A stretch of 37,858 bases of DNA from NCBI GenBank assembly GCA_910575255.1, contig CAJTEM010000041.1, forward strand, positions 1 to 37,858, in the 5' to 3' direction. Below the pieces are notes generated by a model. That model ran no database searches and was not told where the DNA came from. It saw only the letters and a program-made list of their open reading frames with translations. Shown piece by piece: positions 14,214 through 30,542 of this stretch. This DNA is from Lachnospiraceae bacterium (GTDB taxonomy: Bacteria; Bacillota; Clostridia; Lachnospirales; Lachnospiraceae). The position numbers and the translations under genes are program-made. Positions within the stretch are counted from its first letter, which is position 1. Every line of letters begins with the position of its first letter.

Positions 14214-15614
14214 GTGATTCATCAATATAGAAATAACGGCTACAACATCGTGATGGATGTGGCAAGCGGTTCCGTACATGTGGTGGATGATGTGGCATAT
14301 GATGCGATTGCCTTGCTGGAGCCGAAGCTTGGGGAGCTGGAGAAACCAGAGAAGCTTTCCGAAGAGCTGCGTGCCCGGGTGAGGGAGCAGCTGGCAGCTT
14401 CCTTCAGCAATCAGAAGATCAACGAAGCGCTGGGGGAGATCCAGGAGCTGGTCGATGCCGGGGAGCTGTTTACCAAGGATATTTATCAGGAATATGTTAC
14501 GGAGTTCAAAAAGCGCAAGACAGTAGTCAAGGCATTGTGCCTTCACGTTGCCCATGACTGTAACCTGGGATGCCGCTATTGCTTTGCCGAGGAGGGAGAG
14601 TACCATGGGCGGCGGGCTCTTATGAGCTTTGAGGTGGGGAAAAAAGCTCTGGATTTCCTGATTGCCAATTCCGGCAACCGAAGGAATCTGGAAGTGGATT
14701 TTTTTGGCGGAGAGCCGCTGATGAACTGGGATGTGGTGAAGCAGCTGGTAGAGTACGGCAGATCGAAAGAAGAAGCCTGTGGAAAACATTTCCGGTTTAC
14801 CCTGACTACCAATGGGGTATTGCTGAATGATGAGATCATGGAATTCTGCAACCGGGAGATGAGCAATGTGGTGCTGAGCCTCGACGGACGCCGTGAGGTG
14901 AATGATTTTATGCGCCCTACCCGCAATGGAAAAGGCAGCAGCTATGATATCATTGTTCCGAAATTTCAGAAGTTTGCGAAGTCCCGTGCAGGGAAAGACT
15001 ATTATGTGAGAGGGACCTTTACCCGCTGTAATCTGGATTTCTCCGAGGATGTGAAGCATTTTGCAGATCTGGGGTTTGACCAGATGTCTGTTGAGCCGGT
15101 GGTGGCGCCGCCAGAAGAGCCATACGCCATCCGTGAGGAGGATCTGCCCCGGATTCTGGAAGAGTATGATAAGCTGGCATTGGAGTACATTAAAAGGAAG
15201 AAGGAAGGAAGAGGCTTTCAATTTTTCCATTTTATGATAGATCTGAGTCAGGGACCCTGTGTGGCCAAGCGGCTTTCCGGCTGCGGGTCGGGTACGGAAT
15301 ATCTGGCAGTGACTCCCTGGGGTGATTTCTATCCCTGCCATCAGTTTGTGGGGCAGGAGGATTTCCGGATGGGGAGTGTGGATGAGGGTATTATCCGGAC
15401 AGATATCCGGGATGAGTTTAAACTCTGCAATGTGTATGCCAAGGAGAGGTGCCGGGACTGTTTTGCAAGGTTCTATTGCAGCGGAGGCTGTGCAGCGAAT
15501 TCTTATCATTTTCACGGCAGCATTACGGACGCCTATGAGATCGGCTGTGAGATGCAGAAAAAGCGGATCGAATGCGCGATTATGATTCAGGCAGCGTTGG
15601 CAGAGGAGACATGA
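14214..15614 (+). CDS. scfB: SCIFF radical-SAM maturase (thioether-forming)
   Basis: A 466-residue radical SAM/SPASM enzyme that installs Cys-to-residue thioether bonds in the SCIFF peptide encoded just upstream. The N-terminal 100 residues look like the peptide-recognition (RRE-like) domain, including VVDDVAYDAIALLEPKL. The radical SAM cluster is HDCNLGCRYCFAEEGEYHG (Cys116, 120 and 123). SPASM auxiliary cluster cysteines appear as KRLSGCGSGTEYLAVTPWGD, FYPCHQFVG and CRDCFARFYCSGGCAANSYH. A GTG start at 14214 has AAGGAG eight bases upstream. The stop overlaps the first copy of a 52-base tandem repeat. SecDF and YajC follow in the same direction, a neighbourhood often conserved with SCIFF in Clostridia. 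Confidence 0.96.
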   Translation: MIHQYRNNGYNIVMDVASGSVHVVDDVAYDAIALLEPKLGELEKPEKLSEELRARVREQLAASFSNQKINEALGEIQELVDAGELFTKDIYQEYVTEFKKRKTVVKALCLHVAHDCNLGCRYCFAEEGEYHGRRALMSFEVGKKALDFLIANSGNRRNLEVDFFGGEPLMNWDVVKQLVEYGRSKEEACGKHFRFTLTTNGVLLNDEIMEFCNREMSNVVLSLDGRREVNDFMRPTRNGKGSSYDIIVPKFQKFAKSRAGKDYYVRGTFTRCNLDFSEDVKHFADLGFDQMSVEPVVAPPEEPYAIREEDLPRILEEYDKLALEYIKRKKEGRGFQFFHFMIDLSQGPCVAKRLSGCGSGTEYLAVTPWGDFYPCHQFVGQEDFRMGSVDEGIIRTDIRDEFKLCNVYAKERCRDCFARFYCSGGCAANSYHFHGSITDAYEIGCEMQKKRIECAIMIQAALAEET

Positions 15615-15716
15615 GAAACCCCCTTCGGGGATACCAGGATGTCCAAAAATCATGGACAAAAAAGGAGAAACCCCCTTCGGGGATACCAAGATGTCCAAAA
15701 ATCATGGACAAAAAAG
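15613..15716 (+). repeat. 52-bp tandem duplication spanning the scfB-secDF junction
   Basis: Two units (15613-15664 and 15665-15716) differ at one base, and a partial third unit begins at 15717. Each holds a small CCC-TTCG-GGG hairpin, an inverted pair TGTCCA...TGGACA and an AAAAAAGGAGA ribosome binding site. The first unit begins with the scfB stop codon, and the second supplies the secDF ribosome binding site. Confidence 0.95.
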
Positions 15717-15727
15717 GAGAAAAGAAA

Positions 15728-17863
15728 ATGAATAACAGTAAGGGAAAGGGACTTTTAGGCCTGCTGGTCTTGTTGTTTGCGGTGGGGCTGTTTGGGTTCT
15801 TCGGCTATGATACCATGGACCAGATCAAGCTGGGGCTGGATCTGGCCGGCGGCGTCAGCATCACTTATCAGGCAGTAGAGGAGAATCCGTCGGATGAAGA
15901 TATGGCGGACACGGTCTACAAGCTGCAGCAGAGGGTACAGAATTACAGTACAGAGGCAGAGGTATACCGGGAGGGATCCAATCGGATTAATATCGATATT
16001 CCCGGTGTTTCGGATGCCAATGCTATCTTGCAGGATCTGGGAAAGCCGGGGTCTCTGATCTTTATCGATGAGACCGGACAGGTGATCCTGACCGGGGATC
16101 AGGTGGCGACGGCTAAGGTGGGACAGATGGAACAGAACGGAATCCGTTCCTATGTGGTCAGCCTGACTTTCACTCCGGAGGGAACTACCAGCTTTGCGGA
16201 AGCGACGACGAACAATGTGGGTAAACGCATTTCCATTATTTATGACGGAGCCGTTATTTCCAGTCCGGTGGTGCGGGAGGCGATTACCGGCGGACAATGT
16301 CAGATCGACGGTATGGACGGATACGATGAGGCGAATAATCTGGCCTCGACCATCCGGATCGGTTCTCTGTCCCTGGAATTGGAAGAGCTGCGTTCCAATG
16401 TGGTGGGCGCCAAGCTGGGACAGGAGGCGATCGCGACCAGCCTGAAGGCCGGTGCAATCGGTTTTGCCCTGGTGGCGGTATTCATGATTGCAGTCTATCT
16501 GGTACCGGGCGTGGCTGCCGTGCTGGCTCTGGCAATGTATGTAGGACTGATTCTGATTCTGCTGGCAGCCTTTGAGGTGACGCTGACCTTGCCGGGTATT
16601 GCTGGCATTATCCTTTCTGTAGGTATGGCCGTGGATGCCAATGTTATCATCTTTACCCGTATCAAGGAGGAACTCGGGCATGGCAAAGTCGTGAGATCAG
16701 CGATCAAAACCGGTTTCAGCAAGGCTCTTTCAGCGATTGTGGACGGCAATATAACCACATTGATTGCGGCGGCCGTGCTTTATTTCCGCGGTTCCGGTAC
16801 AGTCAAAGGTTTTGCCACCACCCTGGCAATCGGTATTATCCTGTCGATGTTCACGGCTCTTTTCGTGACCCGTTTTGCTATTTATGGTTTGCTTAACATC
16901 GGGATCGAGAGCCCGAAGTTCTATGGCGTGAAAAAGGAAGGAAGGGTAATCGGTTTTCTCGGTAAGAGAAAGGTATGCTTTGCCATTTCGATTGTGATGG
17001 TAGCAGCAGGATGGGCGGCAATGCTTCTGAATAATGGCCAGACCGGGAGAGCGCTCAATTATGGAATGGATTTTACCGGCGGCACTTCGACAAATGTGAC
17101 GTTTAATGAGAACCTTTCTCTGGAGGATATCTCCAGCCGGGTCGTACCGGTGGTTTCTGAGATTACCGGCAATGCAGATGTGCAGACCCAGAAGGTGGAG
17201 GGCACCAATGAGGTGATTATTAAGACCCAGACCTTGTCTGTGGATCAGAGGCAGGCGCTGGAGGATGCCATGGTGGAAAATTTCGGCGTGGAGAAGGAAC
17301 TGATCACGGCAGAGAGCATTTCCGCAGCGGTCAGCAAGGAGATGAAGCAGGATGCGGTCGTGGCCGTGGTGCTGGCGACTATTCTGATGCTTTTGTATAT
17401 CTGGTTCCGGTTCAAGGATATCCGTTTTGCAACCAGTGCAATTCTGGCGCTGGTGCATGATGTGCTGGTGGTTCTGACCTTTTATGCGGTGGCGAAATGG
17501 TCGGTGGGTTCGACCTTTATTGCCTGTATGCTGACGATAGTAGGTTATTCCATCAATGCGACGATTGTTATCTTTGACCGTATCCGCGAGAACCTGGCAA
17601 ATAAGGCGCCCAAAGAGGAGATGGAGGAATTGGTGAACCGGAGTATTACCCAGACCTTCACGCGCAGTATCAATACCTCTCTGACGACCTTTATTATGGT
17701 ATTTGTGCTGTTCCTGCTTGGAGTATCCTCCATCCGGGAGTTTGCGCTTCCGCTGATGACCGGTATTGTGTGCGGAACCTATTCTTCGGTTTGTGTGACC
17801 GGTGCACTCTGGTATGTGATGACCATGGCAAAAGGGAGAAATTCTGCGGAGCCAAAGTCATAA
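15728..17863 (+). CDS. secDF: SecDF fused protein-export membrane protein
   Basis: This RND-family membrane protein uses the proton-motive force to help SecYEG/SecA move proteins across the membrane. SecD and SecF are joined in one chain of 711 residues, as in Bacillus and many Clostridia. The SecD half starts with a transmembrane helix and the signature IKLGLDLAGGVSITYQ (33-48), then a periplasmic-side domain and five helices including VGMAVDANVIIFTRIKEEL. The SecF half has its own signature YGMDFTGGTSTNVTF (D448, F449, T450, G451, G452) and a second TIVGYSINATIVIFDRIREN. The ATG at 15728 follows AAGGAGA by seven bases; upstream codons belong to the tandem repeat and scfB. tgt starts 47 bases later, in the same operon. 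Confidence 0.97.
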   Translation: MNNSKGKGLLGLLVLLFAVGLFGFFGYDTMDQIKLGLDLAGGVSITYQAVEENPSDEDMADTVYKLQQRVQNYSTEAEVYREGSNRINIDIPGVSDANAILQDLGKPGSLIFIDETGQVILTGDQVATAKVGQMEQNGIRSYVVSLTFTPEGTTSFAEATTNNVGKRISIIYDGAVISSPVVREAITGGQCQIDGMDGYDEANNLASTIRIGSLSLELEELRSNVVGAKLGQEAIATSLKAGAIGFALVAVFMIAVYLVPGVAAVLALAMYVGLILILLAAFEVTLTLPGIAGIILSVGMAVDANVIIFTRIKEELGHGKVVRSAIKTGFSKALSAIVDGNITTLIAAAVLYFRGSGTVKGFATTLAIGIILSMFTALFVTRFAIYGLLNIGIESPKFYGVKKEGRVIGFLGKRKVCFAISIVMVAAGWAAMLLNNGQTGRALNYGMDFTGGTSTNVTFNENLSLEDISSRVVPVVSEITGNADVQTQKVEGTNEVIIKTQTLSVDQRQALEDAMVENFGVEKELITAESISAAVSKEMKQDAVVAVVLATILMLLYIWFRFKDIRFATSAILALVHDVLVVLTFYAVAKWSVGSTFIACMLTIVGYSINATIVIFDRIRENLANKAPKEEMEELVNRSITQTFTRSINTSLTTFIMVFVLFLLGVSSIREFALPLMTGIVCGTYSSVCVTGALWYVMTMAKGRNSAEPKS

Positions 17864-19475: not shown

Positions 19476-19511
19476 AGCAGGCGGATTGTTTTGGGAATCT
19501 GTCTGCTTTTT
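19476..19511 (+). terminator. Terminator of the secDF-tgt-yajC operon
   Basis: A 12-base stem (19476-19487 with 19496-19507, two G-T pairs) closes an 8-base loop and is followed by TTTT. It lies 42 bases after yajC. Confidence 0.88.
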
Positions 19512-19545
19512 GCAACAGACGGCAGCTATGAGGAGGAATAAGTTT

Positions 19546-20235
19546 ATGTTATCTGGAATTTTTAATTATGATAATCCGTTCTGGAGATTTATCGGCAAGT
19601 TCTGCGACGTTATGATTCTGAATGTGCTTTGGGTGCTGTGCAGCATTCCGGTTGTGACGATGGGCGCTTCCACTACAGCGGTTTATTATGTGACCCTGAA
19701 GCTGGTGAGGGATGAAGAGGGCCCCACGATCCGCTCCTTTTTCAGATCCTTTAAGGAGAATTTCAGACAGGCGACCATCATCTGGCTGATTATGCTGGCA
19801 GCAGGCAGCCTGCTGGGCTTTGATCTGTACTTTTTCCTGGCAATACAGCGTACAGCATCCGCACTGCGTACGGTGATGCTGGCAGTTTTCGGCGGCTTTC
19901 TGATGGTATATCTTTTGGTGCTGATGCTGGTATTCCCGCTGCAGGCACGTTTCTATAATCCTGTGAAGAGAACCCTGTTCAATGCGTTTTTCATGTCGGT
20001 ACGCCATATCGGGCATACGGTTGGGATGATACTGATGGATATCCTGCTGGTGATGGCGGCGGTCTTTGTGCTGCCGATGCTTCAGGCTCTGCTGTTCTTG
20101 TTCGGATTCCCCCTGTTTGCATTTCTCAATTCCTATGTGATTGTGGGAATCTTTGACAGGTACATGCCGAAGGAGGGGGAGGGCAGAGACCATCCGCTGG
20201 AGCTATTGGAGGCAGGGGGGAAGGAAGGGCGGTAA
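19546..20235 (+). CDS. YesL-like DUF624 membrane protein
   Basis: A 229-residue membrane protein beginning GIFNYDNPFWRFIGKFCDVM, then VLWVLCSIPVVTMGASTTAV. This is the typical opening of the DUF624/YesL family. About five hydrophobic segments are visible. YesL-type genes often sit beside carbohydrate ABC transporters with LacI or AraC regulators; here such a locus begins 1.1 kb downstream, but a truncated gene and a terminator separate them. AGGAGG nine bases before the ATG sets the start; the open frame before it has no family support. The biochemical role is unknown; a part in transporter assembly or sensing has been guessed from context in the family. Confidence 0.88.
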   Translation: MLSGIFNYDNPFWRFIGKFCDVMILNVLWVLCSIPVVTMGASTTAVYYVTLKLVRDEEGPTIRSFFRSFKENFRQATIIWLIMLAAGSLLGFDLYFFLAIQRTASALRTVMLAVFGGFLMVYLLVLMLVFPLQARFYNPVKRTLFNAFFMSVRHIGHTVGMILMDILLVMAAVFVLPMLQALLFLFGFPLFAFLNSYVIVGIFDRYMPKEGEGRDHPLELLEAGGKEGR

Positions 20236-20256
20236 TATTAAGAGTTAAGCAGTTAT

Positions 20257-21264
20257 GTGAGTGAGAATTTTAAGATTCTGAGAGACTTTATGGAACAGGA
20301 GGAAGCAACTACACGAAGGCCGTGGGTAGAAATGTGGATTCAGGCTATCTTGCGTTCTGCAGGGGGTGGATTTCAGGGATTACCGGAGCTGGATGAATTC
20401 CTGGAAAGACGGGGAAAGAAAATGGTATGTATTCTGGATGGCCTGGAAGATCTTTGTATGGATGCACAGCTTGCCAGAACAGATACCTGGAAATATGCGG
20501 TTCGTGCCATATGCCAGGATGTAATTAATGAGCTGGACAATCTTGATTATGGAAATATCGGGATTCTGGTGTTTGCCCGCAGGGATATGCTGAGCGAGGC
20601 AATTGATACGAATTACGAGCAATTCAGGAATATTTATCTCAAATATGAATTGAACTGGAGTCAGACGGAGGCGTTGCGGCTGGTTTTGTGGCTGGCGGCA
20701 AGGGCTTATCCGATGCTGTCAGAAGGGATTGATATTACGAACGCAACGAAAGAGGTATTGGCAGAAAAGCTGACCAGGCTTTGGGGATTAAAGTTAGGCA
20801 GGGAAAACTCCAAAGAGGCATTTTCCGACCGCTGGATTATGGCTGCATTGTCAGACTTTTCCGGTCAGCTTCAGGCAAGGGATATTGTCAGATTCTTAAA
20901 GTATGCAACGAATGATTATGCAGGCATGAATATGGTATATCCTGACAGACTGATCATGCCTTTGGAAATAAGAAATGCAATATTGCCCTGTTCGGAAGAC
21001 AAATTGGAGGAGATTAAGTCAGAAATGAAAAATATCTATGAGATCCTTCAGAAGTTTATGGACATGGATAGTGAAAAAAAGACCCTGCCAATGACTTTGG
21101 ATAAAATAGAGTTAACAGGAGAGCAGATATCCCGTCTGGAGGGACAGGGATTCTTGAAAATATCGGATAAGAAATATTATCTTCCCGAGATTATCCGGTT
21201 GGCTCTTGGCTTCCGGTATGAGAAGGGAGCCAGACCGAAGGTCTTGTCCCTGTTGGTAAAGTAA
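20257..21264 (+). pseudogene. P-loop ATPase fragment lacking the N-terminal Walker A part
   Basis: The 335-codon frame reads KMVCILDGLEDLCMDAQLA, a Walker B-like strand followed by Asp-Gly and Glu-Asp, and then GNIGILVFARRDMLSEAI, a sensor or arginine-type strand. LNWSQTEALRLVLWLAARA follows. These resemble the second half of large MinD/ParA-like or KAP-like P-loop ATPases of Firmicutes. No Walker A (GxxxxGKT/S) is present. The first possible start is a GTG at 20257 without a ribosome binding site, and the frame is already open back to 20242, just after a stop. This suggests the 5' part was lost by deletion when it became joined to the YesL-like gene 21 bases upstream. It could still be expressed, but it is unlikely to bind ATP. 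Confidence 0.6.
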
Positions 21265-21322: not shown

Positions 21323-23542
21323 TTAGAATTTCCAGCGGAAATGCTTCTCGAACAATTCCTGTGCATTCTTGAGCGCCTCTTCCGGAGAACAGATATTGCT
21401 GTAGGCATTTTTGACGGCCATTCCCAGGATATTGAGGTATTTTCTCTCATCAAAGGGAGTCAGCTCCCGTTCCGGGACACGTCTTCCTCTGGCCAGCGGG
21501 AAGCATCGCTCGGTAAGGTTGATCCAGGGGAAATTATTGACAACCTCATAGTTCTCGTAAGTTTTCTTGCAGGGAGAGGTGCTGCCTAAGAGTGCTGCCG
21601 CGGAGGAGATGGGTTCGCTGCACATCCATTTGATAAAGGAGAGAGCCTCCTTCGGGTGTCTGGAATAGCGGGATACGCCCAGGCTGCCTCCGCCGATGAT
21701 GGGATTGGCTCCCGGCATCATGGTATAGCCGATATTGCCGACCACATGGGAATTCTGTGCCAGAAGATCACTGGCAAAATTGCTGTAAAGAACCGACATG
21801 GCAAAGCTGCCGGAGGCAAAGCTTCGGGCAGTGTCGACCCACCAGCTGCAGTAGGAGGGAGAGGTATACCGGCGGAGTTCCAGAAGCTCCTTTAGGGACT
21901 GGAGGCAGATCTCGGAATCCAGGTGGATCTCTTCCCGGTCATCGTACAGGTTATCCTGATGGCTGAACAGGCGGGTCATAAATTCCGTGCCGGCAACGCC
22001 CGTGGAACCTAAGGTAATGGTGGCCCCGTAATCCACCGGAGAGGAGGGATGAACGGATTTGGTAAAAAATGCAGCAATCCGGTTGAATTCCTCAAAGGTT
22101 TCCGGCGTTTTTAATTCGGCTCTGTGCTGCTCGTAATAGATCCGCCGGTAAATCGGGCTTTCAAACAGATCCTTTCGATAGTACAGAAGCTGGGTGCTGG
22201 GAGTGGAGGGCAGTGCATAGATCTGCCCGTGGATCCGGCTGTACTGCTCCGGAACACCGTTTAAAAAAGCAGAGAGGCCAGAGCCGATATCCGGGTCAAT
22301 TTCCGTCAGCGGCATCAGAAGTTTGTCGGCAAACCAGGAAAGCCAGGTCACATCCAGACGCAGGATATCAAAGCTGGAGCCGGCGTTCAGGGCATTGAAG
22401 GCTTCGTAAATCTCATCATAGGAATAAATGCAGATATTGACCGGAATGTTGCTCTTTTTTGTATAAAGCCGGGTAAAATTCTGCATAATATAAGCTTCCG
22501 GACTGTCCAGTGTAATGACGTTCAGGGCCTGGCAGTTTCCGGGCGCAATGATATTGGCATGCCAGTTGCGGAAGCCGCTTCCCTGCAGATAGGTGGTCTT
22601 GCCGGTATCCCCGGATTGGGACAGAGTCCTGCGGATCAGGCGTTCGGCAGCACGCTTTCCCAGAAGACGGTAATCCATCTCGTATTTGACAAAGTCATTC
22701 TCCGGCATGGTGAATATCGGAGATACGGTGCAGATCTCAAGCGGATATTTGGAATCATAAAAGCTCAGACAGAGATCCTTGACACCCTCGGCAAAGCCAT
22801 AGTTGGAGATGTAAAAAGCCTGTGGGATCGGCTGACTGAAAATCTGCATAATATTCTGATAACGCCGGAAAAAGTCTGTCTGTATGTGGGTGATCTGGCA
22901 GTCGGAACCTTCCATAACTTCCAGAAAGCTCTGGTAAAAGTCCGATTCATTGGAATGGCTTAGGTTCCCGGTCACAAGACAAATATTGTCAAACCCTCTT
23001 GCGCGGGCATTCTTTGCCATCTCATGGCCGGCATTTCGATAATCAAAGCCGATGAAATCGGCGGAAAAGGACGGACGGTGTTCTACAAACAGAATGTCCG
23101 GTTCTTCATCTGCAAGCGAGGAATTCCTGCTCTTATAGACAGCTTCTTCATAGGAAGTTCCGGCCACCACCGAAAGGCAGGCGATTCCTTTGACCAGAAG
23201 GGGACGTGCCTCCATAAGCGCTTCTTCCTCGCTGCCGGGAGCATTTTCATTGGTCAGATGTCTGGTTACGGAGAAACCCTTGTGCCGGGCGTAGCTCTTG
23301 AAGGCAGAATAGAAATCTTCATATTGCCGGGCCCGGGAATCCGGCATAATTACGGCAAGAGAGTTGCTTGGTCCCTTGCGCAGCAGGGCGGCCCGTTCGT
23401 TGGGAGCATATCCCAGCTGATTGGCAGCTTCCATCACTCTTTTAATCTTTTCACTGCTGACATTCCCCTTGCCATTGAGAACATTGGAAACGGTTCCCTG
23501 AGCAACGCCTGCCAGTTTGGCAATATCCTTGATTGTAACCAT
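21323..23542 (-). CDS. LacI-family repressor fused to an ABC solute-binding-protein domain
   Basis: The 739-residue protein starts with a LacI helix-turn-helix and hinge (MVTIKDIAKLAGVAQGTVSN, then NQLGYAPNERAALLRKG). Next comes a LacI-type PBP1 sensor domain to about residue 335 (NSLAVIMPDS, FIGFDYRNAGHEMAKNARAR, ICLVTGNLSHSNESDFYQSF). From about 340 to the end it is a family-1 extracellular solute-binding protein (ALNVITLDSPEAYIMQNFTR, LPSTPSTQLLYYRKDLFESP, SYCSWWVDTARSFASGSFAM, GGGSLGVSRYSRHPKEALSF). There is no signal peptide, so this binding domain must work in the cytoplasm. AGGAGG five bases before the ATG at 23542 sets the start, although an upstream in-frame ATG exists at 23560. It diverges from a solute-binding lipoprotein and two permeases, which it probably controls. 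One chain therefore carries two different ligand-binding folds on one DNA-binding head. Confidence 0.93.
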   Translation of the reverse strand: MVTIKDIAKLAGVAQGTVSNVLNGKGNVSSEKIKRVMEAANQLGYAPNERAALLRKGPSNSLAVIMPDSRARQYEDFYSAFKSYARHKGFSVTRHLTNENAPGSEEEALMEARPLLVKGIACLSVVAGTSYEEAVYKSRNSSLADEEPDILFVEHRPSFSADFIGFDYRNAGHEMAKNARARGFDNICLVTGNLSHSNESDFYQSFLEVMEGSDCQITHIQTDFFRRYQNIMQIFSQPIPQAFYISNYGFAEGVKDLCLSFYDSKYPLEICTVSPIFTMPENDFVKYEMDYRLLGKRAAERLIRRTLSQSGDTGKTTYLQGSGFRNWHANIIAPGNCQALNVITLDSPEAYIMQNFTRLYTKKSNIPVNICIYSYDEIYEAFNALNAGSSFDILRLDVTWLSWFADKLLMPLTEIDPDIGSGLSAFLNGVPEQYSRIHGQIYALPSTPSTQLLYYRKDLFESPIYRRIYYEQHRAELKTPETFEEFNRIAAFFTKSVHPSSPVDYGATITLGSTGVAGTEFMTRLFSHQDNLYDDREEIHLDSEICLQSLKELLELRRYTSPSYCSWWVDTARSFASGSFAMSVLYSNFASDLLAQNSHVVGNIGYTMMPGANPIIGGGSLGVSRYSRHPKEALSFIKWMCSEPISSAAALLGSTSPCKKTYENYEVVNNFPWINLTERCFPLARGRRVPERELTPFDERKYLNILGMAVKNAYSNICSPEEALKNAQELFEKHFRWKF

Positions 23543-23592
23543 AGTTTCCTCCTGTCCCATTTTTATATCATAGGAAAGTGCGTCCTATGATA

Positions 23593-23743
23593 CAAAAACG
23601 TTCCGTGAGGATCGCAACACGGTGTGAGCTTGTTCACTAAGCTCACTGCATTCGCTAAGTGAGCCAATGCCTGCGGCAGAAAGGAATTGTGTCGCTGCCG
23701 CAGTCCGCCGCAGGCGGAGAATCCTGCGGAGCAGGATTCTTAT
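23593..23743. repeat. GC-rich REP-like repeat, copy 2, bracketed by 10-bp direct repeats
   Basis: The right part (23673-23741) matches 9832-9900, and the last 37 bases are identical. The whole 151-base block is flanked by TCCTATGATA at 23583-23592 and again at 23744-23753, as a target-site duplication would look. Inside is a second hairpin, GCTCACT...AGTGAGC. It sits in the 5' leader region of the regulator gene. A further inverted copy, TATCATAGGA, at 23566-23575 means the direct repeat could instead be part of local repeat structure. Confidence 0.7.
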
Positions 23744-23803
23744 TCCTATGATATCATGTACGCCATGAAATGGCAATCATAAAAATCATCAAAAACAAGG
23801 TTG

Positions 23804-23956: not shown

Positions 23957-23985
23957 TTGACACGTTTCAAAAAAGGTGTTATAAT
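23957..23985 (+). promoter_or_regulatory. Promoter of the ABC transporter operon with overlapping LacI-type operator
   Basis: TTGACA (23957-23962) and TATAAT (23980-23985), 17 bases apart, form a perfect consensus promoter 53 bases before the lipoprotein start. The bases TTGACACGTTTCAA (23957-23970) form a 14-base palindrome with a central CG and one mismatched pair, the shape of a LacI-family operator. It covers the -35 box, so a bound repressor would exclude RNA polymerase. Confidence 0.7.
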
Positions 23986-24038: not shown

Positions 24039-25412
24039 ATGAGAAAGAAAATCGCATTATTAACAGCAGCCAGCCTGCTGGCTTCGGTTGTTGCTCTGAG
24101 CGGCTGTGGCGGCGGTGGGGCAGCGCCGACTCAGGCAGCAGGAGGGGCTGAGAAGACAGAGGCGAAAGCAGAGAGCGCGGATGCCGGAAGCGACAGCAAA
24201 GAGGCTCTTCATCTGACCTTTTACTATCCGGTCAATGTAGGCGGATCCGCAGCGCAGCTGATCGAGAATCTGTGTAATGATTTTAATGCAGAGAATCCGG
24301 ATATCGTAGTAGAGCCGGTCTATACCGGCAACTATGACGATACAGTGACCAAGCTGCAGACAGCTGTACAGGGAGGCACTCCCCCTGAGGTGTTCGTAAG
24401 TCTGGCAACCCAGCGTTTTACCATGGCTTCCACCGGGATGGCCATGCCGTTGGATGACCTGATTGCCGCGGATCCGGACGGCCAGGAATATATCGATGAT
24501 TTCCTTCCCGGATTCATGGAGGATTCCTATGTGGACGGCCAGATTTATTCCATTCCGTTCCAGAGAAGCACCATGGTCATGTTCTATAATAAGGATGCCT
24601 TCAAGGAAGTGGGCCTTGATCCGGAGAAGCCGCCGACAACCTGGGATGAGGTTGTGGAGTACGGACAGAAGCTGACCAATGATAACCGCTATGGCGTAGG
24701 ACTTGCACTGAACTCCGGTTCCGCACAGTGGGCCTTTACCGGTTTCTGCCTGCAGAACAGCGAGAACGGCGAGAACCTGATGACAGAGGACGGCAAGGCG
24801 GTCATGTTTGATACCCCAGGGAATATTGAGGCTCTTCAGTTCTGGCTCGATCTGCAGAACAAGTATGAGATCATGGCTCCCGGCATCGTACAGTGGACCG
24901 ATCTTCCCACCCAGTTTCTGGCAGGGGAAGTGGCTATGATTTATCACACCACCGGCAATATGGCAAACATCAGCCAGAATGCAGAGTTTGAGTTCGGCAC
25001 CTGCTTCCTGCCCGGAGGCAAGCGTCAGGCGGCTCCCACCGGCGGCGGTAATTTCTATATTTCCAACGGCCTCTCTGAGGACCGGGTGCAGGCGGCATGG
25101 AAATTTATCCGCTTTATGACCGAACCGGAGAGAGCGGCTCAGTGGTCCCTGGATACCGGCTATGTAGCCACCAGACAGACCTGTTTTGAGACAGATCTGA
25201 TGAAGAATTATTACGAAGAGCTGCCCCAGGCCAAGGTTGCCTATGAGCAGATCGATATTGCAAAGCCTGAGCTCACCACCTACAATGCGGCTGAGATCTG
25301 GAGAATCTTAAATGATAATATCCAGTCTGCAGTAGTTGGCGACGCAACTCCGGAGGAGGCTTTAAAGGCAGCCCAGGAGCAGGCGACCGAGGTTCTGGCA
25401 GAGTACCAGTAA
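24039..25412 (+). CDS. ABC transporter solute-binding lipoprotein, UgpB-like
   Basis: A 457-residue family-1 solute-binding protein anchored to the outer face of the membrane. A lipoprotein signal is clear: basic MRKK, a hydrophobic stretch, then VVALSGC with the lipidated Cys23 and a Gly/Ala/Glu-rich linker. The mature part reads LHLTFYYPVNVGGSAAQLIE, then GGTPPEVFVSLATQRFTM and GQIYSIPFQRSTMVMFYNKD. WKFIRFMTEPERAAQWSLDTGYVATR near the end resembles glycerophosphodiester binder UgpB more than simple sugar binders. AAGGAGG precedes the ATG. It is the first gene of a transporter operon with its own strong promoter. Glycerol-3-phosphate diesters or oligosaccharides are both possible ligands; sequence alone does not decide. 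Confidence 0.93.
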   Translation: MRKKIALLTAASLLASVVALSGCGGGGAAPTQAAGGAEKTEAKAESADAGSDSKEALHLTFYYPVNVGGSAAQLIENLCNDFNAENPDIVVEPVYTGNYDDTVTKLQTAVQGGTPPEVFVSLATQRFTMASTGMAMPLDDLIAADPDGQEYIDDFLPGFMEDSYVDGQIYSIPFQRSTMVMFYNKDAFKEVGLDPEKPPTTWDEVVEYGQKLTNDNRYGVGLALNSGSAQWAFTGFCLQNSENGENLMTEDGKAVMFDTPGNIEALQFWLDLQNKYEIMAPGIVQWTDLPTQFLAGEVAMIYHTTGNMANISQNAEFEFGTCFLPGGKRQAAPTGGGNFYISNGLSEDRVQAAWKFIRFMTEPERAAQWSLDTGYVATRQTCFETDLMKNYYEELPQAKVAYEQIDIAKPELTTYNAAEIWRILNDNIQSAVVGDATPEEALKAAQEQATEVLAEYQ

Positions 25413-25462
25413 AGTGGGACGGGATAAATCGCAGAACTTTTCAGGCACCAGGCAGAATGAGA

Positions 25463-25482
25463 GAAGGAGCTTCGGCTCCTTC
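25463..25482 (+). promoter_or_regulatory. Intercistronic UUCG hairpin after the binding-protein gene
   Basis: GAAGGAGC and GCTCCTTC form a perfect 8-base stem with a TTCG tetraloop, 50 bases after the lipoprotein stop. No T-tract follows, so it is more likely an mRNA-stabilising or processing hairpin than a full terminator. Such hairpins favour high expression of the binding protein relative to the permeases. Confidence 0.75.
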
Positions 25483-25588
25483 CTCTACTATCAGGAGAAT
25501 CTTTTAGCGTATTTTCCAAAACTTTTATTACTGTAAATGAGCTGTCAGTTCCATCGGGCAGCATCCAAAGTCCTCAGAGGGAATGGTT

Positions 25589-26485
25589 ATGAAAACATAT
25601 ACAAGAAAACAGCGGGAATTAAAGAAAAATCTTGTGGGCTGGCTTTTGGTGGCGCCCTCCCTGGCCTTTATGACATGTTTTACTGTATGGCCGATATTCC
25701 GCAGCATTTATTTAAGCCTGACCAAATACCGGATGGGTATGGCAAAACCGGAGTGGATCGGGTTTGAAAACTATATGAATCTGTTTCAGTCAAGCCTGTT
25801 CTGGAAAGTAATGGGCAATACCTTATTCTTTGCCCTGATCACAATCGTACCCAGTATGGTGGTAGGCCTGTTTCTGGCGACGATTGTCAACCGGAAAAGC
25901 CGGCTGACCGGATTTGTGCGTACTGCTTATTTTTACCCTGTGATTATGCCGATGATCGCGATTGCAAGCATCTGGATGTTCATCTACATGGCCAAGAACG
26001 GTCTCTGGGATCAGTTCCTGGTAAGCCTGGGAAGAAAGCCCATGAACGTTTTGTCCAGCAAAAAGACCGTGCTCCCGGCTATGGCAGTCATGTATGTCTG
26101 GAAGGAGGCAGGATATCTGATGGTATTCTTCCTGTCCGGGATTCAGAGTATCTCCGAGGAGGTCAATGAGGCGGCACGGATTGACGGAGCCGGTTCCTGG
26201 ACCATCTTCCGCCGGATCACGCTTCCTTTGCTGGCTCCGACCTTTTTGTTCGTATCCACCATTGCTCTGACCAACAGCTTTAAGCTGGTGGATCATGTGG
26301 TGATTATGACCGAAGGCGCACCAAACAATGCGTCCACCTTGCTGCTGTATTATATTTACCAGCAGGGCTTTACCAACTTTAACTACGGTGTTTCTTCTGC
26401 TCTGACAACGGTCATGCTGCTTCTTCTGATGGTAGTGGCCCTGCCCCGTTTCTTAAGCCAGGACAAGAAGATCCACTACAATTAA
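25589..26485 (+). CDS. ABC transporter permease, UgpA/MalF-like
   Basis: A 298-residue inner-membrane permease with six predicted helices. It opens LKKNLVGWLLVAPSLAFMTC, the standard UgpA-type start. The cytoplasmic EAA loop EEVNEAARIDGAGSWTIFRRI contacts the ATPase. The ATG at 25589 is preferred because AGAGGG lies seven bases before it; the ATG at 25583 is too close to that site. No ATP-binding subunit is encoded in the operon, so a shared MsmX/UgpC-type ATPase from elsewhere must power it, which is common in Firmicutes. Confidence 0.94.
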   Translation: MKTYTRKQRELKKNLVGWLLVAPSLAFMTCFTVWPIFRSIYLSLTKYRMGMAKPEWIGFENYMNLFQSSLFWKVMGNTLFFALITIVPSMVVGLFLATIVNRKSRLTGFVRTAYFYPVIMPMIAIASIWMFIYMAKNGLWDQFLVSLGRKPMNVLSSKKTVLPAMAVMYVWKEAGYLMVFFLSGIQSISEEVNEAARIDGAGSWTIFRRITLPLLAPTFLFVSTIALTNSFKLVDHVVIMTEGAPNNASTLLLYYIYQQGFTNFNYGVSSALTTVMLLLLMVVALPRFLSQDKKIHYN

Positions 26486-26498
26486 GGAGGGAAAGACC

Positions 26499-27320
26499 GT
26501 GAAAAAGAGAAAAACAATCGGTGCAATGATCACAATATTTGCGGTGCTGCTGGGGATTCTGTGGCTGATTCCTTTGATCTGGCTGATCGGGACGGCATTT
26601 TCGGTGCCATCCTTTCACATGACGCTGTTCCCCACCACATCGTTTACCCTGGACAACATCAAGTATGTCTGGAATGCGATTCCCTTCGGAACCTATTACA
26701 TCAATACGCTGATTCTGGTGGTATGTACCTTTGCGGTGCAGTTTGTCACTTCCACCATGGCAGCTTACGCGCTGGGGGTCCTGGACTTCAAGGGTTCCGC
26801 CCTGGTATTCGCGGTGATCTTTATGCAGATCATCATTCCCAATGATGTATTGATCACCCCGAACTTTATGACACTGTCCGAGATGAAGCTGGTGGATACC
26901 AAGATCGGCATGATGCTGCCCTTCTACGGAAGCGCGCTGGCAATCTTCCTTCTGCGGCAGCATTTCAAATCCATACCCAGGGCCCTGGCGGAGGCAGCCA
27001 GGATCGACGGAGCTACCACCTGGCAGACTATCTGGAGAGTCTATATGCCCTGTGCAAAGCCGGCATATCTTTCCTTTGCCGTAATTTCTGTCAGCTACCA
27101 TTGGAATAACTATCTGTGGCCGCTGATCGTGACGAATTCCCCGGCAAACCGCACCCTGACCGTGGGGCTTGCCATATTTGCAAAATCAAAGGAAGCCAAC
27201 ATGCAGTGGGCCAATGTCTGTGCTGCGGCTTTCATCATTATCATCCCTCTGTTGCTGGCCTTCTTTGTTGCACAGAAGCAGTTTATGAGCAGCTTTGTGA
27301 GCGCCGGGATCAAGGAATAG
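26499..27320 (+). CDS. ABC transporter permease, UgpE/MalG-like
   Basis: A 273-residue second permease, partner of the preceding one. It has a GTG start with AAGGAGGG seven bases upstream; that site overlaps the stop codon of the first permease, so the two are translationally linked. The EAA loop reads RALAEAARIDGATTWQTIWR. The C-terminus FVAQKQFMSSFVSAGIKE matches the end of carbohydrate-type MalG/UgpE permeases. The membrane segments include IFAVLLGILWLIPLIWLIGT near the N-terminus. Confidence 0.94.
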   Translation: MKKRKTIGAMITIFAVLLGILWLIPLIWLIGTAFSVPSFHMTLFPTTSFTLDNIKYVWNAIPFGTYYINTLILVVCTFAVQFVTSTMAAYALGVLDFKGSALVFAVIFMQIIIPNDVLITPNFMTLSEMKLVDTKIGMMLPFYGSALAIFLLRQHFKSIPRALAEAARIDGATTWQTIWRVYMPCAKPAYLSFAVISVSYHWNNYLWPLIVTNSPANRTLTVGLAIFAKSKEANMQWANVCAAAFIIIIPLLLAFFVAQKQFMSSFVSAGIKE

Positions 27321-27335
27321 ACCGGAGGTAGACAT

Positions 27336-28025
27336 ATGAACTTGAGATTTCTGGGAAAAGGCAGCGCGTTCTATCCGGTATATGGAAATACAGGAGCGTA
27401 TATGCTTTATGGCAAAGAGTTGTACCTGTTGGATTGTGGGGAGACAGCCTTTGAGCGTCTGTATGAACTGGTCGGTTTTGATGAGATTGAGCGGGTGTAT
27501 GTAATCCAGACCCATCTCCATGCGGATCATGTGGGGAGCTTAGGGAGCCTGATCTCCTACTTCCATCATATTTTGGGCAGGCAGGTCGTGGTGGTCCATC
27601 CGCAGACGACTGTTGTGCAGCTTCTGACCCTGGAAGGAATTGATCCCCGCGGTTATATTTACAAGGAGACCCTTCCGGAAAATGCCGCCGGCCTGCATGC
27701 AGAGCCGGTGGAGGTCAAGCATGCCAGGGACATGAAGTGCTACGGCTATATCCTCAGTGATAAGGAGGAAAGCGTTTACTACAGCGGCGATTCTTCCGAG
27801 CTTCCGCCTCAGATCCGGGAGCAGTTCCTGGAGGGAAAGATCCAGCGGATCTATCATGACACGGCTTCTGAGGATTTGCCGAATCCCTCTCATTGCTATT
27901 ATGGGAAGATGGAGCAATGGATTCCCAGAGAAAAGCGGGGGCAGGTATACTGCATGCATCTGGACAGTCCTTGTGAGGACATGCTGAAGGAGCGGGGATT
28001 TTCGGTAGTAGAAGTGGAGGGATGA
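27336..28025 (+). CDS. Metallo-beta-lactamase-fold hydrolase
   Basis: A 229-residue cytoplasmic MBL-fold protein. The metal site is THLHADHVGSLG (His60, His62, Asp64, His65), followed by a bridging-type Asp in VYYSGDSSELPP and a C-terminal His in VYCMHLDS. This arrangement is typical of RNase Z- and phosphodiesterase-like members rather than beta-lactamases. GGAGG stands seven bases before the ATG, 15 bases after the permease, so it belongs to the transporter operon. That suggests it acts on the imported compound, for example as a phosphodiesterase on glycerophosphodiesters or cyclic phosphates. This is inference from context; the substrate is unknown. Confidence 0.85.
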   Translation: MNLRFLGKGSAFYPVYGNTGAYMLYGKELYLLDCGETAFERLYELVGFDEIERVYVIQTHLHADHVGSLGSLISYFHHILGRQVVVVHPQTTVVQLLTLEGIDPRGYIYKETLPENAAGLHAEPVEVKHARDMKCYGYILSDKEESVYYSGDSSELPPQIREQFLEGKIQRIYHDTASEDLPNPSHCYYGKMEQWIPREKRGQVYCMHLDSPCEDMLKERGFSVVEVEG

Positions 28026-28034
28026 GCGGAAGAT

Positions 28035-28547
28035 ATGTTTCAAAGACTGGACAGGGAAGAAGTATTTTCCAGCCACTGGCTGAAGTTGTTTCTGGATACT
28101 GTGACGGATGACAGAAATGTCACCCTGAAATATAATGTGGTCCATGTAAGGCGGGAATCGGTTGTGGTTATGGTAAGAAAGGGCGATCAGCTGCTTCTGA
28201 CAGAGAATTACCGATATCCCATTGAAAAGGTTCAGCTGGAGTTCCCCGCGGGAGAGATCGAAAAGGGGGAGACACCTTTTCAGGCGGCAGAACGGGAGGT
28301 ATATGAGGAGACCGGAGTCCAGATTCAATGTCAACCGGCGACCTTTTCCTTTTACCCCTCCAATGGTCTCAGCGACCAGAGGATCCACATCGTATTTGGA
28401 GAATATATGGACGGAGAGTTGAATCCTCAATACGAAATCATGAAATGCTTCTGGATGGACGAGAAGGAATGGAAAGGACGGCTGGCTTTAGGAGAAATCA
28501 CCGATGCCGCTTCCCTGATTGCGTATCTGTATTCCCTGCTTTTTTGA
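28035..28547 (+). CDS. NUDIX hydrolase, ADP-ribose pyrophosphatase-like
   Basis: A 170-residue NUDIX protein that should cleave nucleoside diphosphate-linked compounds such as ADP-ribose, releasing AMP. The NUDIX box at 73-95 (GEIEKGETPFQAAEREVYEE, then TGV) fits GX5EX7REUXEEXGU exactly. The strand before it, VQLEFPAGEIE, and the following PSNGLSDQRIHIVFGEYMDG are typical of the ADP-ribose pyrophosphatase group. It starts nine bases after the MBL gene stop with only a weak site (GCGGAAG), so it is probably translated by coupling. Its role within a transporter operon is unclear, and it may be a hitch-hiking housekeeping gene. Confidence 0.88.
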   Translation: MFQRLDREEVFSSHWLKLFLDTVTDDRNVTLKYNVVHVRRESVVVMVRKGDQLLLTENYRYPIEKVQLEFPAGEIEKGETPFQAAEREVYEETGVQIQCQPATFSFYPSNGLSDQRIHIVFGEYMDGELNPQYEIMKCFWMDEKEWKGRLALGEITDAASLIAYLYSLLF

Positions 28548-28650: not shown

Positions 28651-28823
28651 GTACCTTCTGGAACCTCACCCCACCCCGTGAAAAGGGAACTCTTTCCCGC
28701 CAGATGATCGGCTTTCCGCTGCAAGCCTGCTTGATAAAGGAGACTGTCCGTGGTAAGATGACATTAGATTAAGATACAGGCTGGCAGATGCTCATGGGAA
28801 AGATGTGGAGAGGAGCAGGAGAA

Positions 28824-30542
28824 ATGGTGAGAAAGAAGAGGCTTCCGATTGGGATTGAAGATTTTGAAGAAATCCGTACAGAAGATTTTTATTATGTAGA
28901 TAAGACAGGTCTCATTACAGAGTTGCTCCAGAATTGGGGTAAGGTCAATCTTTTCACCAGGCCAAGGCGTTTTGGAAAATCTCTGAATATGAGTATGCTT
29001 AAGAGGTTTTTTGAATATGGCTGTGACAGGCGGCTTTTTGAAGGACTGGTCATTGCAGAGGAGCAAGAGTTATGTGATCGGTATATGGGCAGCTTTCCGG
29101 TGGTATCGATTACTCTGAAAGGGGCAGAGGCAAGGGATTATGAGGGGGCGCGGGCGATGCTGGCTTCCATTGTCGGGAAAGCGGCGTTAAGGCATTCCTT
29201 TCTTCTGGAAAGTGACAAACTTTCCAATGGGGAAAAAGAACTGTTTAGCAGGCTGATTACGGTAGGAAAGGGGGAAGAGCCAGGATTTGTCATGCCGGAA
29301 GATGTGATAAAGGATAGCTTGCTGACCTTAACCCAGCTTTTAGGGAAGCATTACAACCAGAAGGTAGTCCTTTTAATTGATGAATATGATGTGCCGCTAG
29401 ATAAGGCACAGCAGTTTGGTTATTATGAAGAAATGCTCAGCTTGGTAAGGAACATGCTGGGGCAGGCGTTAAAAAGCAATGAAAGCCTCCAATTTGCCGT
29501 GCTGACCGGATGCTTAAGGATTGCCAAGGAGAGTATATTTACCGGGCTTAATAATTTTAAAGTTATGTCTGTCACGAGTATCAGGTATGATGAATATTTT
29601 GGCTTTACAGAAAAAGAGGTTGCTGGTTTGCTGAATTATTACGATTTGGAGGATAAGTATGGGCAGATTAAGGAGTGGTATGACGGGTACAGATTTGGAA
29701 AGACAGATGTATATTGCCCGTGGGATGTGATTAATTGCATTGATTTATTCTGTTCCGAGCCGGAAGCATCTCCCCGGGCATTCTGGATAAACAGCAGTGG
29801 GAACCATATTATCCGACGATTTTTACAGATGGCAACCCCGAGAACCCGGAGGGAGGTTGAGTGCTTGCTTGCCGGGAAAAGCGTGAAAAAGAGGGTGAAC
29901 CAGGAGCTGACCTATCGGGAACTGTACGAGAATATCGACAATCTTTGGAGCGTACTCTTTACCACCGGTTATTTAACCAGCAAGGAAGCTGTGGGGGAGG
30001 ATGTCTATTCCCTGGTGATTCCCAACCTGGAAATTCGGACGATATTTGTGGAGCAGGTGATGGAATGGTTCCAGGAGGAGGCCAGGAAGGATACACCTAT
30101 GCTGGATGAGTTCTGCCAAGCATTTGCCAAGGGGGATGGAGGGAACGTGGAAAGGCTGTTTACAGCTTATTTAAAGAAAACCATCAGTATCCGGGATACC
30201 AGTGTGAGGAAAGCGAAAAAGGAGAATTTTTATCACAGCATTTTATTAGGTCTGCTCAGCCACCGGGGGGATTGGGATGTGGATTCCAATATAGAAGCTG
30301 GGGACGGGTACAGTGATATCCAGGTGGAGATTGAGGAGGGGAGCATAGGACTCGTGATTGAGGTCAAATATGCGAATGAAGGGAATTTAGAGGCCGGGTG
30401 CAGAAGGGCACTTGAGCAGATCGAGGAAGCGGGCTATGAGAAAAGGCTTAAGGAGGACGGGATGACCATTATCATCAAATATGGGATTGCCTGTTGGAAG
30501 AAGGAGTGCATGGTGCGAGTGGTCAGAGGGGAACCCTGTTGA
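28824..30542 (+). CDS. AAA-ATPase-like protein with C-terminal PD-(D/E)XK nuclease domain
   Basis: A 572-residue protein of the family that joins an AAA-ATPase-like domain (PF09820 type) to a DUF1703 PD-(D/E)XK nuclease (PF08011 type). It opens RLPIGIEDFEEIRTEDFYYV, the family start. The Walker A-like FTRPRRFGKSLNMSML (44-59) lacks the usual second Gly but matches the family; Walker B is VVLLIDEYDVPL. The C-terminal nuclease core is DGYSDIQVEIEEGSIGLVIE followed by VKY, carrying Asp and Glu-Val-Lys. The ATG at 28824 has AGGAG eight bases upstream. These genes are present in many copies in Lachnospiraceae and Bacteroidetes, and their function is not established; defence or mobile-element roles have been suggested. 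It stands alone here between repeats. Confidence 0.9.
   Translation: MVRKKRLPIGIEDFEEIRTEDFYYVDKTGLITELLQNWGKVNLFTRPRRFGKSLNMSMLKRFFEYGCDRRLFEGLVIAEEQELCDRYMGSFPVVSITLKGAEARDYEGARAMLASIVGKAALRHSFLLESDKLSNGEKELFSRLITVGKGEEPGFVMPEDVIKDSLLTLTQLLGKHYNQKVVLLIDEYDVPLDKAQQFGYYEEMLSLVRNMLGQALKSNESLQFAVLTGCLRIAKESIFTGLNNFKVMSVTSIRYDEYFGFTEKEVAGLLNYYDLEDKYGQIKEWYDGYRFGKTDVYCPWDVINCIDLFCSEPEASPRAFWINSSGNHIIRRFLQMATPRTRREVECLLAGKSVKKRVNQELTYRELYENIDNLWSVLFTTGYLTSKEAVGEDVYSLVIPNLEIRTIFVEQVMEWFQEEARKDTPMLDEFCQAFAKGDGGNVERLFTAYLKKTISIRDTSVRKAKKENFYHSILLGLLSHRGDWDVDSNIEAGDGYSDIQVEIEEGSIGLVIEVKYANEGNLEAGCRRALEQIEEAGYEKRLKEDGMTIIIKYGIACWKKECMVRVVRGEPC

Follow-up and report, generated by a model that had tools for sequence, protein, structure and literature searches.

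A LacI-type regulator with a third, solute-binding domain

We analyzed a 37,858-nucleotide stretch of DNA from a Lachnospiraceae bacterium (GenBank assembly GCA_910575255.1, contig CAJTEM010000041.1), hereafter the window, which encodes a regulator that joins the helix-turn-helix (HTH) head and the periplasmic-binding-protein type 1 (PBP1) core of a LacI repressor to a complete family-1 solute-binding protein (SBP). With a probability that we put at about 60%, the sensor of this protein has been swapped: the fused SBP domain would sense an imported organophosphate, the PBP1 core would act as a scaffold, and the protein would be the dedicated repressor of the divergent operon at 24039-28547. 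This reading builds on the fused architecture, trees that fit one origin, a conserved predicted operator placed on a promoter, the loss of PBP1 hallmarks and a clade-specific SBP cleft, all of which were computed. The features concerned are listed in Table 1.

The open frame on the minus strand spans 21323-23560, and an ATG at 23542, with AGGAGG closely upstream, opens a chain of 739 residues with zero internal stops. Pfam places a LacI HTH (PF00356, 2.1e-16) at residues 3-48, SBP_bac_8 at 360-661 (1.2e-20) and SBP_bac_1 at 350-643 (3.4e-17). By profile, the PBP1 core gave a weak match (Peripla_BP_4 at 161-254, 9.4e-4, under the cut-off), and Peripla_BP_1 was matched in 28 of the 42 fusion relatives of the first set described below. 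An AlphaFold2 model based on a 68-sequence alignment reached a mean predicted local distance difference test score of 90.1 and a predicted template modeling score of 0.86, with values under 50 for the hinge (48-56). Searched with Foldseek, this model matched MalE-type SBPs best (3.1e-24), namely maltose-, trehalose- and sulfoquinovose-binding proteins, as well as LacI (1jwl, 8.9e-18); the nearest solved relatives of the SBP domain, by profile or fold, were 5iai, 1eu8, MalE3 and the sulfoquinovosyl-binding SmoF. The hinge residues A51 and L54, C-terminal to the HTH, are invariant across the 68 aligned fused proteins. No membrane or signal segment was seen in the fusion protein, in which the highest 19-residue hydropathy was 1.44, at residue 109. 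Lacking a signal peptide and being joined to a DNA-binding regulator, the SBP domain is therefore cytosolic.

These data agree with the initial annotation, made from the sequence alone, which had read the chain as a LacI head, a LacI-type PBP1 sensor and a complete family-1 SBP without a signal peptide: the profiles place the SBP matches beyond residue 340 (~350-661), and the structure prediction that it had proposed as a check gave a confident fold, in which the PBP1 core is clear by Foldseek despite its weak profile. In the bacterium's own genome this is the sole matched fusion of its type, the other 17 matches being LacI-size proteins or SBPs as judged by length and matched part.

Table 1. 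Features of the regulator, the divergent region and the importer operon (positions in the window)
Feature	Position	Strand	Basis or remark
Fusion regulator, 739 aa	21323..23542	-	LacI HTH + PBP1 core + SBP domain
SBP (family 1, MalE-like) domain, residues 336-739; cleft R395, D397, S449, N588, G618	21326..22537	-	Pfam, Foldseek, alignments
PBP1 (LacI core) domain, residues 60-325, without hallmark effector Arg/Asp (F202, S274)	22568..23365	-	AlphaFold2, Foldseek, alignment
LacI-type HTH, residues 3-48	23399..23536	-	Pfam
Promoter-like site of the regulator, TTGCCA-17-TATCAT	23748..23776	-	10/12
Second operator-like inverted repeat, TTGAAC-AGT-GTTCAA	23804..23818	n/a	kept in five close relatives
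Predicted main operator TTGACACGTTTCAA, 14-bp palindrome overlapping the -35 box of the importer promoter	23957..23970	+	conservation and promoter overlap
Promoter-like site ahead of the importer operon, TTGACA-17-TATAAT, TG before the -10 box	23957..23985	+	12/12
Extracellular SBP lipoprotein	24039..25412	+	nearest solved relative UgpB (2.1e-45)
ATP-binding cassette (ABC) permease	25583..26485	+	nearest NCBIfam UgpA (5.8e-40, under cut-off)
ABC permease	26499..27320	+	nearest NCBIfam UgpE (4.1e-38, under cut-off)
Metallo-beta-lactamase (MBL)-fold hydrolase, phosphodiesterase-like, HxHxDH motif	27336..28025	+	Lactamase_B_2; weak to RNase Z, PhnP, Apyc1
NUDIX hydrolase, last gene of the likely operon	28035..28547	+	

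An old family, widespread but patchily distributed

Relatives were gathered in two sets, which overlap (some contigs are identical) and in which several relatives from named genomes are near-identical. The first comprised 42 fusions chosen for matching both halves, with at least one fusion in the region fetched from each of 40 relatives; LacI HTH and SBP_bac_1 score in all 42 of these pre-chosen rows. The second consisted of at least 80 loci kept from a scan of contigs of named genomes with the SBP half alone and, among the matches listed, 67 of 80 loci encode full fusions with a complete HTH. The remaining 13 comprise nine exported SBPs and four loci that are incomplete at the N-terminal side: two run off the contig start (L112, L160), one lies near a contig start behind a stop (L157) and one contains unknown letters (L144). 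These four count among the 72 rows labelled fused in the SBP tree, and L160 also among the 68 neighborhoods surveyed below. That two genes were joined by a missed stop or a frameshift has next to no probability, given the same continuous frame in these 67 of the 80 loci listed, in all 40 fetched regions and in a complete Escherichia coli plasmid; nothing was found in favor of such an artefact.

Counting the bacterium's own genome each time, a fusion match was present in 7 of 24 genomes of the genus (E ≤ 1e-60), in at least 27 of 299 genomes of the family (E ≤ 1e-40; all but the seven weakest matches were fetched) and in at least 2 of 398 genomes at the phylum level, the family and phylum tallies being lower bounds obtained by scoring the best two or three candidates per genome. 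Hosts of the fusion include Lachnospiraceae and other Clostridia, Paenibacillus, Bacillus, Enterococcus and Erysipelothrix, as well as Spirochaetota, Calditrichota, Gilliamella, Proteus and Providencia. The initial annotation had mentioned similar fusions in gut Clostridia; the fusion is not restricted to these.

Matches covering at least 80% of the protein were found in 51 plasmid records (48 Escherichia, 2 Proteus and 1 Rhizobium), and the 20 plasmid homologues listed, all from E. coli, showed 29.9% identity over 98%. Nineteen of these 20 records are annotated as 'extracellular solute-binding protein' and one as 'hypothetical protein'; genes of this fusion family can thus carry wrong names in databases. 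A module of the regulator, an MBL gene and a major facilitator superfamily (MFS) gene occurs in 46 of 5,426 complete E. coli genomes, with 44 places on plasmids and 2 on the chromosome. On the E. coli plasmid NZ_CP100527.1 (locus L174, 3849-9175), the fusion regulator diverges from genes for an MBL hydrolase, an MFS transporter and MgtC and carries the annotation of an extracellular solute-binding protein.

The SBP cleft is clade specific, and the PBP1 core has lost two hallmark residues

The 68 fused proteins aligned comprise clade 1 (43 rows), which includes the window protein, and a clade associated with CUT2 importers (25 rows). Passages of a study on UgpB report that an Asp, a Gly and an Arg that hold hydroxyls are conserved between a trehalose binder and UgpB (PMC12718374). 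By homology, in a profile alignment to the trehalose/maltose-binding 1eu8, D397, G618 and R687 would fall on these three residues; D397 is kept in 67 and G618 in all 68 fused proteins. Our reading of the alignments places S449 at the position of UgpB Ser143, a phosphate contact. In the AlphaFold2 model, R395 precedes D397 by two positions within one strand (393-397) and should for this reason also face the cleft. In clade 1, R395 and N588 are present in 43/43 rows, S449 in 42/43 and G619 in 40/43. In the CUT2 clade, position 395 is never Arg (Met in 14 rows), N588 occurs in 0/25 and Trp619 in 25/25, position 449 is Gly, Ala or Thr and position 588 is Ser, Glu, Asp or Ala. Residue 619 is presumably the position of the sugar-stacking Trp of the trehalose binder. 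The predicted cleft residues thus differ with the neighboring transporter, with Arg and Asn at organophosphate-type loci and Trp at sugar (CUT2) loci, and such clade-specific conservation would be expected of a ligand reader.

This pattern bears on a different role for the SBP domain, that of a part for protein interaction or assembly, which might dock on the importer or form tetramers that loop two operators. The near-constant helical phase of two operator-like sites (see below) suggests a higher-order assembly of this kind, but we consider such a role quite improbable, given that the cleft residues are conserved and vary with the clade and its transporter class. Also at odds with it are four loci (L120, L132, L133 and L165) in which an MFS protein adjoins the fusion and no CUT1, aminoethylphosphonate-type or CUT2 importer was recognized within six genes.

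As to the PBP1 core, isopropyl β-D-1-thiogalactopyranoside is held in LacI by Asp274, Asp149, Arg197 and Asn246, according to passages of a LacI study (PMC10647483). We compared the 68 fused proteins with 22 distinct ordinary LacI proteins (23 rows, L007 and L016 being the same gene), equating LacI positions through the R..GF and GFD motifs of the ordinary rows and not through a structure-based alignment to LacI. At the effector Arg position (R..GF; F202 in the window protein), 1 of 68 fused proteins has Arg or Lys vs 19 of 22 ordinary LacI proteins; at the effector Asp position (GFD; S274 in the window protein), Asp or Asn is found in 3 of 68 vs 21 of 22.

A conserved palindrome overlaps the importer promoter

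The core of the predicted main operator, TTG-NN-ACGT-NN-CAA, was found upstream of 21 of the 43 clade-1 fusion genes, compared with a mean of 0.025 of 43 and a maximum of 1 in dinucleotide shuffles. In the 5.14-Mb genome of the bacterium it occurs once, at 23957-23970, vs three times for the reversed pattern, used as a control. The complete palindrome, TTGACACGTTTCAA, is identical in seven relatives aligned with the window and is also present in two Blautia loci with a different operon type. The related word TTGGAACGTGTCAA lies in the divergent region next to the homologue on the E. coli plasmid and was also found at four Paenibacillus, one Bacillus and two Oscillospiraceae loci. A palindromic operator with a central CG, a trait of LacI/GalR repressors, thus appears to be present, judged by the conservation of TTGACACGTTTCAA in relatives. 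Since the palindrome overlaps a consensus promoter, recurs in distant relatives and has a core that is unique in the genome, the fusion is very probably the dedicated repressor of the divergent importer operon.

Applied to the CUT2-associated clade, an unsupervised search retrieved a different palindrome, near AATTTAAACGTTTAAATT, with the same center. This search covered 24 of 26 members, leaving out L149, which has little upstream DNA, and L160. Palindromes of this type scored at least 15 bits in 22 of the 24 upstream regions, and the log-likelihood was 162 vs 38-41 in three shuffled sets, which were mononucleotide shuffles run with fewer seeds and rounds.

The second operator-like site follows the pattern TTGAA-N5-TTCAA, found in 6 of the 43 clade-1 upstream regions, namely in the window and in five relatives close to it; mononucleotide shuffles gave a mean of 0.055 and a maximum of 1. 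Both candidate operators had been proposed in the initial annotation, and their conservation in relatives is consistent with this proposal. The distance between the two predicted sites ranges from 109.5 to 152.5 bp in the window and the five relatives, corresponding to 10.4, 10.5, 13.4, 13.5, 13.6 and 14.5 helical turns. This near-constant phase, based on only three independent spacings, hints at cooperation or looping.

The position of the main operator also bears on the direction of control. PurR-type LacI proteins work with a co-repressor, and this precedent would favor a ligand that strengthens operator binding, or else a protein that activates the operon. A main operator that overlaps the -35 box of a promoter already matching the consensus speaks against activation, and nutrient importers are usually induced by their cargo; we regard either mode as rather unlikely.

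Transporters vary around the fusion and, often, a phosphodiesterase-like gene

We surveyed the genes within six genes of 68 fusions. Neighbors were called as simple open frames and named with profiles that had been extended from a small number of seeds verified by Pfam; representatives were checked by Pfam or NCBIfam. Among 42 clade-1 fusions, 16 had Ugp-like CUT1 importers and 18 had aminoethylphosphonate-type importers. In five clade-1 loci, a gene of the nucleoside-symporter MFS type adjoins the fusion and is accompanied by an MBL gene; L126, which is among these five, additionally carries CUT1 genes at a distance of three genes on the other side. The initial annotation had raised the question of how often such fusions sit beside an importer: at least one CUT1, aminoethylphosphonate-type or MFS gene was found in 38 of the 42 clade-1 neighborhoods, but no full ABC importer of the three classes lies within six genes of 15 of all 68 fusions, four of which have an MFS gene. 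The transporter beside the E. coli plasmid fusion is likewise an MFS protein. CUT2 ATPase or permease genes lie near 18 of 26 CUT2-clade fusions; as exceptions, one clade-1 locus also has CUT2 genes and one CUT2-clade locus has CUT1 genes. Genes for phosphodiesterase-like proteins (MBL, glycerophosphodiester phosphodiesterase or calcineurin-like) were within six genes of 29/42 clade-1 and 0/26 CUT2-clade fusions. This survey suggests that transporters have been exchanged while the regulator and often a phosphodiesterase remained together.

An MgtC-like gene was observed in 16 of 80 loci among the matches listed, all of clade 1 (L099, L100, L101, L102, L105, L114, L115, L126, L128, L129, L132, L133, L135, L136, L161 and L165; Pfam-checked only: the L105 gene).

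In the window, the regulator diverges from an ABC importer with its own extracellular binding lipoprotein, as the initial annotation had stated and as genes and domains show. UgpB/UgpAE, the glycerol-3-phosphate importer, is the closest match, although the window importer remains far under the NCBIfam equivalog cut-offs (165 of 411 bits for UgpB, 138 of 335 for UgpA and 131.7 of 297 for UgpE) and its operon contains no ATPase gene. Passages of the UgpB study list Tyr64, Ser143, Ser266 and Tyr342 (Phaeobacter numbering) as phosphate contacts and Glu88, Arg393, Trp188, Gly303 and Trp191 as the glycerol set, and describe the phosphate set as common to binders of glycerophosphocholine and of a dinucleotide (PMC12718374). 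Residue roles were carried to the aligned chains by an inferred constant numbering offset. With this offset, pairwise alignments suggest that the outer SBP keeps most of the phosphate contacts (Tyr64, Ser143 and Tyr342, with Ser266 replaced by Thr) and, of the glycerol set, Gly303 and Trp191, and differs from UgpB in Glu88, Arg393 and Trp188. Given the MBL hydrolase and the NUDIX protein encoded in the operon, we lean toward a phosphodiester as the cargo, of which glycerol is not necessarily a part; this is a lead rather than a result.

A protein with AAA-ATPase_like and PDDEXK_9 domains is encoded closely downstream of the operon (28788-30542).

Proposed mechanism and the points that weigh against it

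In the mechanism that we propose, the LacI head would bind TTGACACGTTTCAA at 23957-23970 across the -35 box and block RNA polymerase. The PBP1 core, its own effector pocket decayed, would provide the dimer scaffold and a relay. In the cytosol, the SBP cleft would close on the imported compound, for which an organophosphate is the most likely candidate and a phosphodiester a probable one; closure would be relayed through the PBP1 core, the operator would be released and import would be switched on. The MBL hydrolase would then cleave the imported phosphodiester. Of this scheme, we infer the negative direction of control (as opposed to activation), the identity of the ligand and the relay.

Several observations weigh against a swapped sensor in a dedicated repressor. 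The exact operator core is absent from 22 of the 43 clade-1 upstream regions, and the operator sample includes near-identical relatives. In the SBP domain, R687 is kept in only 47 of 68 fused proteins, and pocket and transporter class both follow one deep split of the tree, so that their agreement represents few independent events. The 15 of 68 fusions without a full ABC importer nearby count here as well, as do the replacements in the outer SBP of Glu88 by Ala, Arg393 by Trp and Trp188 by Ser; given these lost glycerol contacts, 'glycerophosphodiester' would be a guess as the name of the cargo. In the PBP1 core, position 247, equivalent to Asn246, is Asn in 22 and Asp in 14 of 68 fused proteins, so that the pocket may bind something else. 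Finally, the core shows no lower conservation than that of ordinary LacI proteins, with 3 columns at or above 90% in both groups and a mean pairwise identity of 22.7 in fused and 21.0 in ordinary proteins.

The last two points favor a two-input repressor, in which the PBP1 and SBP pockets would each have a ligand, such as a metabolite from inside the cell and the compound that is imported, combined under AND/OR logic. Consistent with this, the fold of the PBP1 domain is preserved, E105 occurs in 67 of 68 fused proteins, position 247 is Asn, Asp or Ser in 66 of 68, and a motif around position 274 (TLGEExWN in 8 and TLGEAHWN in 2 of 30 printed fused rows) is common to part of the CUT2 clade. The replacement in nearly all fused proteins of the effector Arg and Asp, which correspond to LacI Arg197 and Asp274 with the inducer-binding roles given in passages of PMC10647483, argues in the opposite direction. 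We consider two-input control unlikely, though worth keeping in view, and the two working ligand pockets suggested by the initial annotation find no support in a core that has lost both hallmarks and kept position 247 only in part. Low conservation of the PBP1 core was dropped as a sign of decay, ordinary LacI cores being no better conserved; in the fused set, 3 of 266 PBP1-core columns and 29 of 404 SBP-half columns reach 90%, the latter without a matched baseline. The case for a decayed PBP1 pocket thus comes down to the two hallmark positions. Because of this conservation control, our confidence in the swapped sensor was lowered slightly and that in two inputs raised.

Origin of the fused domain

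In a tree of the SBP half, the 72 rows labelled fused lie on one side of a branch with a support of 94 in the Shimodaira-Hasegawa-like approximate likelihood ratio test, separate from exported sister proteins and from the importers' own SBPs. The 68 fused rows of the LacI-half tree likewise fall on one side of a branch, with a support of 87. Both values are under the program's mark of 95, and both trees fit a single fusion event. A derivation of the fused domain from the neighboring UgpB-like lipoprotein was rejected, since the two form separate groups; the fold inside the cell is thus related to the binding protein outside, as the initial annotation had it, but is not a copy of it.

Among the matches listed, the nearest free-standing relatives in the scan are exported SBPs of ~480 residues from Paenibacillus, Fontibacillus, Cohnella, Hungatella and others (nine of L163-L173). 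Eight of these nine sisters have a segment close to the YRKDLFE...P.T..E segment of the fused domain, from which they differ in being unfused and in carrying N-terminal export signals. Their length had suggested HTH-SBP fusions, which was rejected in view of the export signals and the absence of an HTH. An ordinary LacI gene is present in five sister loci (L163, L164, L166, L169 and L171), and genes of glycoside hydrolase family 2 adjoin the sister SBP in both loci checked (L163 and L171); given this context, the ancestral cargo of the SBP domain may have been a sugar. An origin of the LacI half from these ordinary LacI proteins was not supported, as all five belong to the six ordinary LacI rows farthest from the fusions, measured by the mean path length to 20 rows out of the 68 fused ones. 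The clade-1 operator core was sought in eight of the nine sister loci and was absent.

Comparison with known systems

With LacI/GalR repressors such as LacI, Cra, CcpA, RbsR and PurR, the fusion shares the HTH and hinge, the PBP1 fold, a predicted palindromic operator with a central CG and a regulon beside an importer, probably local. It differs from them by an additional C-terminal family-1 SBP of ~400 residues, which extends the chain to 739 residues from the ~340 of the two-domain form, and by the loss of the hallmark effector Arg and Asp. Passages of a comparative survey of LacI proteins describe two characteristic domains and 'a rigid domain structure' (PMC4052901). With extracellular family-1 (CUT1, MalE-like) SBPs, the fused domain shares the fold, the profile match, the cleft Asp and Gly and, in 47 of 68 proteins, the Arg; unlike them, it has no export signal or lipobox, the N-terminus being the HTH, is joined to a regulator and forms its own group in the tree. 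A description of the three-domain LacI-SBP form was not found among the open-access papers listed, a search that did not cover subscription papers and does not establish absence from print.

More broadly, we see an even chance that these proteins constitute a widespread and as yet undescribed class of one-component regulators, with a transplanted PBP2-type SBP domain taking over the sensing role of the LacI core. This class would have arisen once and spread through Bacillota, Spirochaetota, Calditrichota and Enterobacterales, partly on plasmids, with one branch reading phosphodiesters (importer, phosphodiesterase and often an MgtC-type gene) and another reading sugars (CUT2). In textbooks, LacI proteins exemplify the borrowing of a sensor from one binding-protein class. 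The addition of a second class and the silencing of the first would, if true, be a natural experiment in wiring a closing cleft to a DNA-binding head, of use for biosensor design. A cytosolic reader with a predicted operator would moreover allow the cargo of importers that lack an assigned one to be found through inducers of a reporter.

Other features of the window

The regulator leader contains an insert of ~190 bp (23565-23754) with perfect 12-nt inverted ends, ATATCATAGGAA and TTCCTATGATAT, that is missing in the nearest aligned relatives. Counting itself, the stretch 23561-23758 is matched at 45 places in the genome, a few of them over most of its length, and the insert looks like a dispersed repeat of the miniature inverted-repeat transposable element type. 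The region 19486-21264 encodes a DUF624/MusI-like membrane protein, followed by a 335-residue protein with a sub-threshold match to an Sll1717-type P-loop ATPase; the latter may be a remnant, and L056 holds a matching frame of 878 residues. Farther away, an SCIFF peptide maturase (TIGR03974, 1.8e-241) is encoded at 14214-15611, adjoining SecDF at 15572-17860.

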